Source: Candidatus Gastranaerophilales bacterium
GTDB lineage: Bacteria > Cyanobacteriota > Vampirovibrionia > Gastranaerophilales > Gastranaerophilaceae
Direction of reading: 5' to 3'
NCBI GenBank assembly: GCA_900552525.1
Contig: UNSK01000065.1
Span: 1-8,729, forward strand
Length of the DNA: 8,729 bases
The translations under genes and the position numbers were made by a program. How positions within the stretch are numbered: the first letter of the stretch is position 1; every line of letters begins with the position of its first letter. The notes under the pieces are model-generated. The model made no database searches. It was not told the DNA's origin and saw only the letters and a list, made by a program, of their open reading frames with translations. Positions 2-8,729 of this stretch are shown one piece after another.

Positions 2-1177
2 TTTATAATAGCGCCTTCTCACCATAAAAGTTTTAATAATATTGCCTTGCCGGAATATTCATTTTTTGAAACTCCGCTGGGAAATATTGAGGTTAATAAC
101 AGGTTGATTAAGGAAATTGCTCAAAAATTCCCTTGTACAATTGATAATGAACCGTTTAAAGAAGAACACTCCATAGAAGTTCAGCTTCCTTTTTTACAAA
201 ACTTGCTTTACCCGCGCAGACAGAGCGCTGCTGATTTTGTAAAAAATCTTAAAAAAATAGGAAAAAAAATCAAAATAATACCAATTCTTACAGGAAATTG
301 CGACCATAGACTTATATCTGATTTAATAGCAACATACTGGGAGAACTCATCTTTCGTAATTTCATCAGATTTAAGCCACTACTACCCGCATCAGATGTGC
401 AGGCAGATAGATACTTATACAGCTACAATTATTGAGACAGGCAGAATAGAATTTTTAGAAAATGCTCAAGCCTGCGGAGTTGTCGGTATTAAAGGACTGG
501 TTGATTTTGCCAATAACAATGACTGCTCGATGATTAGAGCAGAGATGTATAACTCTGGTGATATAAGCGGGGAAAAAGATAAAGTTGTTGGATATGGATC
601 ATGGTTTATGTATACTGACTCCAGAAACGAATTTATTGAAAAATATTGCAGTGACTATGTACTTAATGCTGCAAGAGCAAGTATATTAGCTTCCATAAAC
701 GAGGAAGAATTTATTCCGGAAAAAATACCACCTGTTTTAACCCAGTTTGGGGCCTCATTTGTAACCCTTAAATATGATGGACAGCTAAGAGGCTGTATTG
801 GCTCTGTTTATCCTACAAAACCATTAATACTAGATATAATAGATAACGCAAAGAATGCCGGTTTTCAGGATCCGCGTTTTGAACCGCTTACAATAGATGA
901 ACTTGATAAGCTTCAGGTTTCAGTTTCTATACTTTCATCAATAGAACGGCTTCCTTATAAAGACGAGAGAGATTTACTATCAAAAATTTACCCCCATGGA
1001 ATAATTATAATGGAGAGAGAAAAACGAGCAGTTTATCTTCCAATTGTGTGGGAACAGCTGCCGGATAGAGAAATTTTCTTCAATTCTCTTAAAGAGAAAG
1101 CTGGACTCCCGCCTGAATATTTCTCAAGAAACCTTGAAGTTTACAAGTTTGATGCTTCATATATTACGAATGATTAG
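2..1177 (+). CDS. AmmeMemoRadiSam system protein B-A fusion (MEMO domain + AMMECR1 domain), 5' partial
   Basis: The reading frame is open from base 2, so the N-terminus lies outside the window; the first possible start inside it (TTG at 47) falls after conserved MEMO sequence and is not the true start. Numbering from the first visible codon, residues 1-205 are a MEMO (AmrB) domain. It retains the family's putative metal ligands: PSHH (His7/His8), EEHS (His56), SSDLSHY (His126) and the ACG cysteine (Cys158), followed by the SGD...VVGYG block. Residues 73-89, rich in Lys, look like an extra insertion before the IIPILTG strand. Residues 215-387 form an AMMECR1 (AmrA) domain with the LRGCIGS signature (262-268) and DPRF (290-293). 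Fusions of these domains are known, and a radical SAM partner often sits nearby; it is not in this window and could be upstream. The biochemical role is not settled. The gene ends convergent with galE, overlapping it by 14 bp. Confidence 0.93.
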   Translation, partial: FIIAPSHHKSFNNIALPEYSFFETPLGNIEVNNRLIKEIAQKFPCTIDNEPFKEEHSIEVQLPFLQNLLYPRRQSAADFVKNLKKIGKKIKIIPILTGNCDHRLISDLIATYWENSSFVISSDLSHYYPHQMCRQIDTYTATIIETGRIEFLENAQACGVVGIKGLVDFANNNDCSMIRAEMYNSGDISGEKDKVVGYGSWFMYTDSRNEFIEKYCSDYVLNAARASILASINEEEFIPEKIPPVLTQFGASFVTLKYDGQLRGCIGSVYPTKPLILDIIDNAKNAGFQDPRFEPLTIDELDKLQVSVSILSSIERLPYKDERDLLSKIYPHGIIIMEREKRAVYLPIVWEQLPDREIFFNSLKEKAGLPPEYFSRNLEVYKFDASYITND

Positions 1178-5141: not shown

Positions 5142-5957
5142 TTATACTGCCATTATTACGATATTGTGCTTATTTGCATATTTAATAACATCTTCTCTAT
5201 CAACAATAATAGTTTCTCCAGCTTCTACAGCAATCAAGTCGCCCTTATATTTATGCAGAGTTTTTAGTGTTCTAAGCCCGATTGCAGGTATATCAAATCT
5301 TTTGTCCTGTGAAGGTTTTGCGACCTTAATAACGCGTGAATTTTTTTTTGCAATTTTACAGCCGCGTTTAATACATTTATCAGTACCTTCAATTGCTTCA
5401 ACAGCCATTATCATTTTATCTTTTATAACAACAGATTGGCCGATATCCAGCTTTCCGGTTTCTTTAGCCAGCCAGTAGCCATAATTTACATCGTCGATTT
5501 GTTCTTGAGTCGGCTGTACTTTGCCTAAAATCCCGGAAGGTATCATAAGATTTTTAATAAATAAAGTCTGGTCAAGGATTGTAACTCCTATCTTTTCCAG
5601 TTCTTCAATTATCATAAGCATAACTTTATCGTCATTAAGTCTGATTGCCTTTTTCATAAATTCTATAGCTCTGGCATCAAACTTCGGACGTTTAAGCAGA
5701 ATTGTTTTGCTGACTTTTCCAAGGAAAGTTATTTGTTTGATTCCTTCAGCTTTCAAAGTATCTTCAATTTTTTGTACTTCTCCAGGGCAGAAAGAATATA
5801 CTTTTGAACAATATTTTTTCAGCTGAGAATAATTATCGTTTGAAAGTGATATTGCAACCACATCAAAACCATTTTCTTTCGCATACTGAGCCATCTTTAC
5901 CGGCAGTAAACCATCACCGGCAATTAATCCCTGTTTTTGTTCCAAAGCTACTGACAT
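5142..5957 (-). CDS. lpxI: UDP-2,3-diacylglucosamine pyrophosphatase LpxI
   Basis: Hydrolyses UDP-2,3-diacylglucosamine to lipid X and UMP, the step before LpxB; it is the alternative to LpxH in many bacteria. The 271 residues match the family (DUF1009). Visible features: N-terminal GLIAGDGLLPV (10-20), the FLGKVSK strand (78-84), VQPT (147-150), VVIKDKMIMAVEAIEGTD (176-193), and the C-terminal KPSQDKRFDIPAIG block (214-227), whose aspartates include the likely catalytic residue by comparison with characterised LpxI. ATG 5957 has a strong GGAGG but with a long 12-nt spacing; no better in-frame start lies between. A run of nine A on the coding strand (5349-5341) encodes the KKN stretch near residue 205. 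The order lpxI-lpxB is common in lipid A operons, but lpxA and lpxD are not seen here. Confidence 0.94.
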   Translation of the reverse strand: MSVALEQKQGLIAGDGLLPVKMAQYAKENGFDVVAISLSNDNYSQLKKYCSKVYSFCPGEVQKIEDTLKAEGIKQITFLGKVSKTILLKRPKFDARAIEFMKKAIRLNDDKVMLMIIEELEKIGVTILDQTLFIKNLMIPSGILGKVQPTQEQIDDVNYGYWLAKETGKLDIGQSVVIKDKMIMAVEAIEGTDKCIKRGCKIAKKNSRVIKVAKPSQDKRFDIPAIGLRTLKTLHKYKGDLIAVEAGETIIVDREDVIKYANKHNIVIMAV

Positions 5958-5969
5958 TATTAAATCTTT

Positions 5970-5974
5970 CCTCC
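5970..5974 (-). promoter_or_regulatory. Shine-Dalgarno of lpxI (long spacing)
   Basis: GGAGG on the minus strand, 12 nt from ATG 5957, longer than the usual 5-9 nt. It supports translation of lpxI independent of the autotransporter gene upstream. Confidence 0.6.
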
Positions 5975-5992
5975 AAGTTTTAATATAAATAT

Positions 5993-6019
5993 ACTATAAA
6001 AATTCTGTTTTAGTAACAA
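5993..6019 (-). promoter_or_regulatory. Possible promoter for lpxI-lpxB
   Basis: On the minus strand TTGTTA (6019-6014) is followed after 15 nt by TATAGT (5998-5993; five of six to TATAAT); TAGTAT gives 17-nt spacing with a weaker match. It sits in the 91-bp gap between the autotransporter stop and lpxI. No strong terminator for the autotransporter is visible in that gap, so readthrough into lpxI is also possible. Confidence 0.35.
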
Positions 6020-6048
6020 ATTCTTAATAAAATTTTATAAACCCGTGT

Positions 6049-8249
6049 TTATTTTCCAATAAACCACCTTATCCCGAAAGAAAGAGAAACCCCGTTACGT
6101 CCGCCGTTAGAAACCATTGCCTGTCCAAATGCCAGAAACTTATCTTTAATGCGTTTTTGCACTCCTAATCCATATTGTACATATGGTTTTATACTCATTT
6201 CCGGTAAACGAACATTATTTGCTGTTACCTTATTCTTATTTAAGATGTTCCACACCATATTAATTCCAACGTATGGCTGCCATCCATTTTTAGTGTTCAT
6301 AATAAATTTTACCCCTGGAGTAAGCTGTATTGCATGGAGCGGGTCACTGTCTATATGAACACCGGCAGAATTTGTGTAATCAAATGTATTAACAAAAGTA
6401 TAACTCATTAGCATAGACGGTTGAATGATATATTTCCCATCTTTAAACTCAAAGTTATATCCGAGTTTGTTACCTATGCCTGCTAAGAGCATAGTAAAAT
6501 TATCTTTACCATACATTGTATGACTTTCTCCCAGACTTGCTCCGGCTGATAAAGTTATGGCATTAAAGAAATTACCTCTATACAATGTTACAGTTCCGCC
6601 TAAAAGGCCTCCATTTTGATATGTATCTACACCTGAATAATTCTGGCTTGCACCGTTATAACCTATATATCCGGTTAAGACTCTGTCAAAACCATATTTA
6701 ACAGGCTTTATGGAAGAATCAAAGCCTATTAAAGAGCCGTATGCAATTGTATTCACCTTTGGCCCATTCCTTAAAGGAATGTTCTCAAAACTTACATATG
6801 GCTTAACCCAGTAACCGGCATTTTCTATTCTGGTTAAAAGAGGAGAATAAATTCCGGCACTGCCGGTCATAGCATATCGGCCTGATTCTTTCAAAGCTAT
6901 TCGTTCAAATATTGGCAGGCTCATAAAATTGTCAGCGTGCTGAAATGCATAATTAAAAGTCTGCATCTGAGTCGAATATGCACCAGATTGAGCTGATACA
7001 GGGGTTGTAAGAACGGAAGGATTAAAGTTATCTGATGGATTCATTGAACCCGAGCTGCGAACAAAAGTAAAGAAACCATCATCAGGATTATAGCCGACAT
7101 TGTATTTATAAATAGTACTGTAAGCATGAGAGGCGCCGGAATAAGTTACAGTATCTGCATAAGAAGAATCAGCAAACAAGACTTTTGTAGCACTGTCGTG
7201 AGAATCAGATATTAAATTTACACCTTTTACATCTATATTACCGTTTGATTCGCCATATTCATCTGCTGAAAAATGTCCCATTGAGTTATTTGCGAGATCT
7301 ACATCAACGGAATTGATATTAATAGAACCATTAACGGTAAATTTTTCATAATTGATTGCTGTACTATTCATATTTGCGATATTCAAGATACCTGATTTAA
7401 CATCTAAAGATTTATTATCACTTATATATACACCATCTCTAACATTTACATTTGTTTCTTCTAGTGTTATGTGAGCATTTTTTATTGAATTATTAAAAGA
7501 TATTTCAGAAGTTTTATCGCCTTTTAGGTGTAATTGATATCCTTTTGCATTTCCATCAATTTGGTCATCAAAAATAATTTGTCCGTAATTTTTCGCCTCA
7601 AGAGTTATTACAGGCTCCTTACTGAATATACCGCCTCTGTCTGCATAAATAGCATTTTGGACAATAACACCATCATCATCAACTTTATTGCCGGAAAAGA
7701 TAGATACACCATTATCAGCAATTATGTTTAAATCTTTTTTAGTATAAATTGCACCGCCGTAAACATCGTCTTGAAGAAATTCATATTCATCAACATTTTT
7801 AACAGTATTATTAATAAAATTTGAGTTTATTATTGCACTGATAGCCCCTTCATTTGATATAGCCCCACCATCTGCGGATGATATATTCCCTATAAAGTCA
7901 CCCGTAATATTCCCAATAACACCGGCAGAACCATTTGCAATAGCTCCGCCTCTTGCTTGGGCTTCATTATTAATAAAGTCTGCTGTAATATTTCCAATTT
8001 TACCAGTATTATAAATTGCCGCTCCACCTTCAGCGGAAGTGTTTGAATTAAAAATTCCGGTTACATCTCCAATATCTCCACCACGGTTATAAATTCTATC
8101 ATTTGATTTTATACCATCTTCAGAATACGCTTCCGAGCTGGATAAAAAAAATAAAGGTATGAAAAATGCAGAAATTACTAAGGTTCTAGCCCCCCCCCCC
8201 CTAGGGATACAACCCTCTTGTGGTCTATATTACAGCAATATTTACTCAT
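6049..8249 (-). CDS. Phase-variable Pmp-like autotransporter; out of frame in this copy (12-G tract)
   Basis: A surface-protein gene split by a G12 run. From ATG 8249 the leader reads 16 codons, then the tract, then a TAG; 10 or 13 G would instead give 732 or 733 residues. Numbering the 13-G form: residues 1-20 are a basic leader plus Gly run, 21-41 complete a signal peptide (hydrophobic LVISAFFIPLFFL, likely cleavage after SSEA), 57-190 carry GGAI-type and FxxN repeats, 190-418 are a beta-rich passenger, 419-442 a helical linker, and 478-733 an outer-membrane beta-barrel ending in RWFIGK with alternating aromatic strands. No ATG, GTG or TTG occurs in the body frame between the tract and TTG 7386, so a start at 7386 would lack any export signal and is unlikely to be real. 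It lies directly upstream of lpxI on the same strand. The ligand or role is unknown; adhesion is a guess from family resemblance. Confidence 0.85.
7687..8082 (-). repeat. GGAI / FxxN protein repeats of the autotransporter passenger
   Basis: In the 13-G numbering, GGAA (75-78) and GGAI (101-104, 128-131, 165-168) alternate with FNSN (67-70), FINN (92-95), FIGN (119-122), FINN (145-148) and FSGN (185-188). Units are about 26-37 residues and share an IGNIT-type strand before each FxxN. GGA(I/L/V) plus FxxN is the hallmark of chlamydial polymorphic membrane proteins, where the repeats are expected to form a beta-helix. Confidence 0.75.
8190..8201. repeat. Homopolymeric C12 tract (G12 on the coding strand), likely phase-variation switch
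   Basis: Twelve consecutive C bordered by CTAG on each side, in an AT-rich genome where such a run is very unlikely by chance. It lies 48 nt into the autotransporter gene, just before the signal peptide core. On the coding strand, tract lengths of 10 or 13 connect ATG 8249 with the body; 11 gives GGC TAG, and 12 gives CTA GAA CCT TAG, both early stops. A T8 run (coding strand, 8151-8144) in the signal peptide is a second, weaker slippage site. Confidence 0.85.
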
Positions 8250-8252
8250 ATT

Positions 8253-8258
8253 CACCTC
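8253..8258 (-). promoter_or_regulatory. Shine-Dalgarno of the autotransporter
   Basis: GAGGTG on the minus strand; its GAGG core is 5 nt from ATG 8249. This strong site fixes the true start upstream of the poly-G tract, in a different frame from the body. Confidence 0.75.
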
Positions 8259-8275
8259 ACAATTTATTCCATTAA

Positions 8276-8281
8276 TTTATA
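8276..8281 (-). promoter_or_regulatory. Possible -10 box of the autotransporter promoter
   Basis: TATAAA on the minus strand (five of six to TATAAT), placing a start of transcription near 8269 and a leader of about 20 nt before ATG 8249. The -35 region (around 8298-8303, TAAACA-like) is weak and overlaps the left arm of the dyad at 8294-8338, so binding there could affect expression. Confidence 0.35.
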
Positions 8282-8293
8282 CTTGCCACATTT

Positions 8294-8338
8294 TGAATGT
8301 TTAATAACAATTTATTTGTATATTGTTACAAAAATTCA
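8294..8338. repeat. Long imperfect dyad between divergent autotransporter and symporter genes
   Basis: Perfect 7-bp core TAACAAT (8305-8311) and ATTGTTA (8322-8328) around a 10-bp centre. Outer arms TGAAT (8294-8298) and ATTCA (8334-8338) also pair, with a partly matching T/A-rich stretch between. Arms of about 18 and 17 nt make this the most structured part of the 132-bp divergent intergenic region. It could be an operator or a cruciform-prone site; the binding protein is unknown. Confidence 0.45.
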
Positions 8339-8381
8339 TATTATTTTCTGATTTACAAATCTTTTATTGTAAAATTAAGTT

Positions 8382-8729
8382 ATGAACTTAGATGCCGCGA
8401 TAGATAGCTTATTATCACCAATTGCAGACAAGGTTTCAGGCTTTATATTTTCCTATGTAACAATAGGCGGAGTAAAAGTCGAATTTCTTATTGCATTACT
8501 CATGGCTGCAGCAATTTATTTTACATTAAGAACGGGCTGCATAGGCTTTTGGGGATTTAAGCACGCCATAAAACTTATAACAAACAATTATGTACACAAC
8601 AACCCCGGCGGGTATCAGAGAAAGAAAAAGGGCGAACTTTCTTCTTTTCAAGCCCTTAGTGCAACAATTTCCGCATCGGCCGGAATTGGAAATGTTGCAG
8701 GTTCAGCAGCGGCTGTATCAATAGGCGGC
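8382..8729 (+). CDS. Sodium:alanine symporter family (AGCS) protein, 3' partial
   Basis: The first 116 residues of a membrane carrier of the alanine-or-glycine:cation symporter family, which import small neutral amino acids with sodium (or protons) across the inner membrane; the rest lies beyond the window. Residues 20-30 and 33-49 begin the hydrophobic part, followed by TLRTGCIGFWGFKHAI (48-63, like the family's TLR-G-F-Q block). GELSSFQALSATISASAGIGNVAG (84-107) corresponds to the conserved G-E-x-S-x-FQAL...G-x-GN-x-AG signature that contributes to the ion/substrate site. ATG 8382 fits the family N-terminus, but no clear Shine-Dalgarno precedes it; TAAAAT (8370-8375) just upstream may be a -10 box, which would make the message leaderless. 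Transcribed divergently from the autotransporter. Confidence 0.9.
   Translation, partial: MNLDAAIDSLLSPIADKVSGFIFSYVTIGGVKVEFLIALLMAAAIYFTLRTGCIGFWGFKHAIKLITNNYVHNNPGGYQRKKKGELSSFQALSATISASAGIGNVAGSAAAVSIGG

Follow-up and report, generated by a model that had tools for sequence, protein, structure and literature searches.

The locus described here raises the question of how a long open reading frame for a surface protein can be expressed if the start codon that it needs lies in another frame. The window, by which we mean the whole analysed stretch of 8,729 nucleotides, comes from the Gastranaerophilales, non-photosynthetic Cyanobacteriota of the gut, and its source is likely a gut bacterium. 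On the minus strand the order of elements is GAGGTG-AAT-ATG, a 16-codon leader, a run of twelve G (G12) and an open body that extends to position 6049. The ribosome-binding site GAGGTG (8253..8258, minus strand) was read directly and lies 3 nt ahead of the ATG (8249-8247), which opens the leader MSKYCCNIDHKRVVSL (8202..8249, minus strand), the head of a predicted signal peptide. The distance from the ATG start to G12 (8190..8201, minus strand), the proposed switch, is 48 nt. The body (713 codons and a stop, 6049..8190, minus strand) is open in a frame that differs from that of the ATG, so that the tract is out of frame in the window copy. Translation and direct reading agree that the ATG frame ends at a TAG in the fourth codon past G12 (8178..8180, minus strand), and a second TAG, likewise read directly, closes the third frame directly past the tract (8186..8188, minus strand). 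The initial annotation had placed G12 between a ribosome-binding-site-preceded ATG and a body in another frame, and its coordinates proved correct on direct reading.

Scanning the body frame for ATG, GTG or TTG revealed none ahead of the TTG at 7386; a full-length body thus needs the ATG at 8249. Directly after the tract follows the hydrophobic stretch LVISAFFIPLFFL (8143..8181, minus strand; best 12-mer hydropathy 2.6), the predicted core of the signal peptide, which in the window copy is unjoined to any start. G12 is the sole G or C run of at least eight within the 8.7-kb window. All five overlapping G8 matches in the window lie inside it, compared to a mean of 0.07 in shuffled sequences, none of which (0/200) reached five. 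Rfam and tRNA scans of the window yielded no matches, while the promoter scan returned 12 sites (14.0 in shuffles) and the search for terminator-like sites four (1.5 in shuffles, sd 1.5). Judged from the sequence, G12 in the predicted leader likely turns translation ON and OFF reversibly through slipped-strand changes of its length, in which case the window copy would be OFF.

The initial annotation had called the body an autotransporter, an identity that is borne out by profile and structure searches. The body scores 32 bits against PF02415 (Chlam_PMP; cut-off 20.6), i.e. it carries PMP repeats, and 46.2 bits (E 3.3e-12; cut-off 16) against the autotransporter barrel model TIGR01414. With an E threshold of 0.01 the window protein has no match to the autotransporter domain PF03797, and we therefore call it PMP-like, not Pmp; some relatives do carry PF03797. 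An AlphaFold2 model built from 26 sequences (mean pLDDT 80.9, pTM 0.61) shows regular short strands of high pLDDT at residues 33-378, beta-helix-like in appearance, then a low-confidence helical linker and finally 12 long barrel strands. The passenger with its GGA(I) and FxxN repeats (7051..8121, minus strand), which is matched by PF02415, corresponds to the predicted beta-helix, in which pLDDT is mostly 85-98. The predicted translocator (6061..6816, minus strand; residues 459-710) is matched by Foldseek to the barrels of EspP, BrkA, AIDA-I and NalP (E 5e-10 to 6e-8). The best 50 Foldseek hits listed include no solved beta-helix; they cover the barrel. Thus, the C-terminal 12-stranded barrel that marks type Va autotransporters is found by TIGR01414, by the AlphaFold2 strands and by Foldseek.

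The gene is flanked on one side by lpxI (5142..5957, minus strand; PF06230/PF17930), lpxB, recF and galE, and on the other side by a divergent agcS-type Na+/amino-acid symporter gene (8382..8729, plus strand; PF01235, TIGR00835), which is cut by the window end. In three sister species (G102, G003 and G163) agcS and lpxI directly adjoin each other, with match ends 85-99 nt apart and without an autotransporter between them; G250, whose alignment was wrongly oriented, is left out of this comparison. The agcS-lpxI junction (window positions 5957-8382) hence appears as a variable slot.

A protein search, in which scoring was confined to the 7993 candidates sharing most words, gave 881 hits. Among the best 120 listed, P0002, the sole intact version of the window gene used here, is 99% identical to the window protein, has 732 residues and represents a cluster of 164 member sequences. 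Its leader is the window leader with one residue changed, it has Gly-Gly-Gly at the position of the tract, and the hydrophobic core past the tract is whole; P0002 is known as a protein, and the length difference for the window gene itself was accordingly deduced at the protein level, from P0002 and the window copy. According to the initial annotation, 10 or 13 G would join start and body into a protein of 732 or 733 residues. This frame arithmetic is correct, and P0002, a natural homologue that shares the leader, is exactly 732 residues long. The database entry for the window copy, reached by searching with the downstream ORF, is P0122, a 305-residue fragment (6049..6966, minus strand) that begins at an internal ATG and belongs to a cluster of 15 member sequences. 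The 164 and 15 members should not be read as an ON:OFF ratio, because contig ends can also yield truncated calls. A near-identical copy of the window locus was found neither in the order, of which 286 genomes taken from a larger group were searched, nor in 65 genomes of the genus, and a search of viral contigs for the locus returned nothing.

To place the tract in a wider context we turned to relatives of the autotransporter. A scan at one genome per species gave 312 encoding stretches, the best 80 of which were kept (924,659 bases). Counted by eye, the titles of these best 80 name Gastranaerophilales in 54 cases, Melainabacteria in three, "Cyanobacteria bacterium" in four, Candidatus Scatousia and Muribaculaceae in one each and unnamed bacteria in 17, in line with the Gastranaerophilales-like lineage proposed in the initial annotation. 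The G-run spectrum of the 80 loci is bimodal, with 133 runs of G5, 17 of G6, six of G7, none of G8 and then 26 of G9 to G17; C9-C10 runs number three. A Markov model predicts about 1.2 runs of G9 or longer per 2 Mb on that strand and about 1.4 per 2 Mb on both strands. Of the 80 loci, 63 have a contig that includes the 5' end of the frame. A run of G9-G17 is present within 80 nt of the frame opening in 17 of these 63, while the remaining 46 autotransporter relatives have no such tract.

Codon usage suggests what the run is kept for. After codon 60, 6.3% of Gly codons are GGG, and one of 92 internal Gly runs consists entirely of GGG. Near the frame opening, 14 of 16 Gly runs derive from an unbroken G tract (eight all GGG, six ending in GGT or GGC at the tract edge). 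Since GGG is rare elsewhere and the Gly runs at the frame opening are tract-derived, the G run is likely kept for a role at the DNA level, not for its glycines. Counting N-terminal Gly runs in the protein database as a measure of ON copies was dropped, because a GTG start just before the tract could mimic the ON state. In one locus (L007) a start call at a GTG just ahead of the tract is possible and would yield Gly-run proteins from out-of-frame copies.

For a systematic analysis of frames we defined a module as a tract of G9 or longer with a start preceded by a ribosome-binding site within 120 nt, a body of at least 100 codons and no N nearby. Once tracts that agreed in both length and 90-nt context had been merged, the 80 loci, the numbered genomes (G) and the window together provided 102 modules. 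They comprise 27 autotransporter, 47 prepilin-like and 28 other modules, a mix that is no unbiased sample, because six genomes (G042, G045, G057, G066, G067 and G248) were picked for the motif described below or for their many tracts; 15 of the 28 others hold a prepilin motif further in. The autotransporter modules (18 from the loci L001-L080, eight from the numbered genomes and the window) have a GAGG-containing ribosome-binding site in at least 23 of 27 cases, the remainder showing AAGG, AGGAG or AAGGAG. Three of them are in frame and 12 each fall into the two out-of-frame classes, the equality that random slippage would give. The in-frame share lies below one third both for autotransporters (3/27; binomial p 0.008) and for prepilin-like modules (9/47; p 0.024), with the reservation that paralogs are not independent. 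Counted by genome place in the numbered genomes, 2 of 21 autotransporter and 10 of 63 prepilin-like copies are in frame, and the out-of-frame classes of the prepilin-like copies over all genomes hold 26 and 27.

The wrong frames are closed quickly. Both are shut within eight codons in 24 of 27 autotransporter modules and in 24 of 47 prepilin-like ones. Taken singly, 94% of wrong frames behind autotransporter tracts (n = 54) are shut within this distance, compared to 54% elsewhere in the same bodies, the respective values for prepilin-like modules being 76% and 53%. Of the 27 autotransporter modules, 24 have a hydrophobic 12-mer past the tract, compared to 1 of 201 later stretches. As in the window, the tract stands between start and body and its length sets the frame. 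Moreover, close copies differ in tract length: among paralog pairs whose 60-nt flanks are identical to 90% or more, each pair lying within one genome, 12 of 17 autotransporter pairs and 35 of 51 prepilin-like ones have unequal tracts, counted by genome place. This recount without merging was made because merging could inflate the unequal share; the merged values for autotransporter, prepilin-like and other pairs are 12/17, 17/27 and 7/8, and those by place 12/17, 35/51 and 1/1.

Beyond single loci, the nine genomes reached via autotransporter loci contain 3 to 31 runs of G9 or longer each. Of the 114 runs counted by place in these nine genomes, which were chosen via such loci and in which contig ends conceal some bodies, 21 stand at autotransporter bodies, nine at prepilin-like bodies and 84 at neither. 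The notion that every such run is a switch was rejected, since these 84 lie behind neither recognised body and many occur in short repeats. Within the order, 103 of 286 genomes contain the motif GAGG-(3..10)-ATG-(25..55)-G9, with 398 matches compared to 38 for the reversed control; these sums were made by hand and cover the forward strand, as overlaps inflate the counts on the reverse strand. In the phylum it occurs in 72 of 194 genomes, and genomes of at least 3 Mb have 0 to 5 matches. The label prepilin-like denotes an assignment by sequence motif; TIGR02532 scored above its cut-off in all eight bodies of G008, the sole genome tested, and PF07963 in one of four bodies tested. Other bodies behind tracts are a Stealth-family enzyme and an RgpF-family protein. 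In G009, tracts stand at the start of two such genes (L227/L230), the Stealth-family one being out of frame and the RgpF-family one in frame, an arrangement reminiscent of glycan contingency loci.

Several genomes show peculiarities of their own. G057 contains 128 runs of G9 or longer in 2.3 Mb, not all of them in genes, and many of those retrieved (L274-L293) stand at prepilin-like genes with long variable leaders. In G045, 18 prepilin-like genes (L314-L330) have a leader of 9-10 codons followed by G10 or G11, and 16 of the 18 tracts share one length and one out-of-frame class, a uniformity contrary to the prediction of free slippage. A G12 in G005 precedes an open frame of 1183 codons with a flagellin C-terminal domain (L213:350-3912); there is no start preceded by a ribosome-binding site within 200 nt, and this tract may be internal to a long flagellin-like gene. 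In G001 and G002 (L141-L200) many runs belong to short repeats in which TAAATG follows the poly-G and no long body is present. Five contigs (L302, L311, L313, L332 and L333) stop 100-300 nt past a tract-bearing leader common to paralogs. For this reason MAG assemblies seem to break at tract-bearing families and may undercount them.

An out-of-frame tract in an assembled genome could also result from homopolymer error during assembly or sequencing, the true gene being in frame in all cells. Homopolymers are indeed error-prone, and the existence of a 99%-identical intact version fits such an error. We consider this very unlikely, as runs of G9 to G17 recur in many MAGs as a class of their own (no G8, 26 runs of at least nine in the 80 loci) and the truncated form also clusters (15 sequences), though contig ends could produce such calls. 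Even if G12 were misread, the tract would stay a candidate switch. Decay to a pseudogene with a permanent frameshift would likewise account for the one frame disruption, and three sister species have no gene at all at this place. This reading is hardly credible given that the remaining body of 713 codons is uninterrupted and matches the intact version at 98-99% identity, and that the sole lesion sits at the tract.

The length of the tract might, moreover, matter less than what happens on it: with programmed slippage of RNA polymerase or ribosomes on the G run, full-length protein would be made at a steady low level even from out-of-frame DNA, and the tract would act as an expression dial, not as a heritable switch. 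Such a mechanism would use a long, pure run of G like the one just ahead of the body, and both the in-frame share of less than one third and the 16 of 18 G045 modules uniform in length and out-of-frame class speak for it. Programmed slippage is nevertheless unlikely, because the out-of-frame classes are balanced (12 and 12 for autotransporters, 26 and 27 for prepilin-like copies), lengths vary from 9 to 17 and are unequal between near-identical paralogs, and the intact, in-frame form of the window gene represents a large cluster of sequences. A programmed frameshift of fixed direction as a general rule is unsupported for autotransporters (12:12); at the prepilin-like genes of G045 it may operate. 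Some slippage may occur on top of phase variation, which is compatible with all of these counter-arguments.

The reading as a reversible phase switch thus stays our preferred one, and the suggestion in the initial annotation that this is a contingency locus caught OFF has gained support from the leader poly-G in many relatives, the unequal tracts of paralogs and the 99%-identical intact version. From the anatomy of the locus, i.e. the tract, the frames, the open body, the intact version and the arrangement in relatives, we infer the following action. Replication slippage would alter the number of G in the tract. At some lengths the leader would read on into the hydrophobic core, so that the protein could be exported and displayed, while at other lengths translation would end within a few codons. 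With several such genes per genome, each cell would have its own set of surface proteins, which may serve adhesion or escape from host antibody or phage. Two facts misfit simple free slippage: in-frame copies make up less than one third, and the G045 tracts are nearly uniform. Populations that are mostly OFF, the shared ancestry of paralogs or a leak by transcriptional or ribosomal slippage could be the cause. Lost mismatch repair was rejected as a cause of the tracts; there is no sign of such a loss, because all 16 genomes tested have a mutS1 gene (over cut-off in 15).

On a larger scale, we lean towards a genome-wide poly-G phasome in gut Gastranaerophilales. About 100 tracts in some species would stochastically switch autotransporters, prepilins and a few glycan enzymes, with most copies OFF and a small subset of its own in each cell, amounting to antigenic variation in a commensal comparable in extent to that of the best-known pathogens. 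Mucosal pathogens provide the most familiar poly-G/C contingency loci, and in all likelihood the same poly-G solution arose independently in this gut order of Cyanobacteriota, which is uncultured. It again concerns a PMP-like autotransporter, in addition to prepilin-like genes. If this holds true, gene callers drop or truncate surface proteins in Gastranaerophilales MAGs because the assembled copy is OFF, and tract length in reads would lend itself to following surface variation in the gut through time. It would also provide a new case for the question of what drives phase variation in commensals, with host immunity, phages and diet as candidates.

The initial annotation knew of no described example in this lineage, and the open-licence literature provided none: among the articles listed on phase variation, homopolymers, autotransporters or pili in Melainabacteria, Gastranaerophilales and Cyanobacteria, no title or abstract opening reports such loci. 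Neither phase variation nor autotransporters turned up in word searches of three Melainabacteria genome papers (PMC5877343, PMC3787301, PMC4040986). A placement of homopolymers towards the 5' end of genes is reported to be general (PMC2831843). The nearest counterparts known are found in Campylobacter jejuni, Neisseria and Chlamydia. Many G/C tracts per genome are shared with Campylobacter jejuni, for whose strain NCTC11168 29 G/C-tract loci with at least seven repeats are reported (PMC4965091). The modules found here belong mainly to autotransporters and prepilin-like genes, and G057 holds 128 runs of G9 or longer. By comparison, the poly-G/C loci of Campylobacter are mostly glycan-modifying genes, and Neisseria has two phase-variable autotransporter genes and is not known to have a many-member family. 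The two genes, NalP and MspA, are reported to have a homopolymer of 6-15 nt in the coding sequence and an ON share that depends on the strain group (PMC3723659). A homopolymeric tract within the coding sequence of an autotransporter is thus common to both systems, the difference being poly-C in Neisseria and poly-G in the window gene. The chlamydial Pmp proteins belong to another phylum, and the window body matches the PMP repeat but not PF03797. In the expanded chlamydial group the tract is reported about 1300 nt upstream of the end of the gene, whereas in the window it lies in the leader, ahead of the hydrophobic core. The likeness is to the PmpG group, for which PMP repeats together with an autotransporter domain, expanded paralogs and poly-G of variable length with frameshifts are reported (PMC6740158, PMC4514472).
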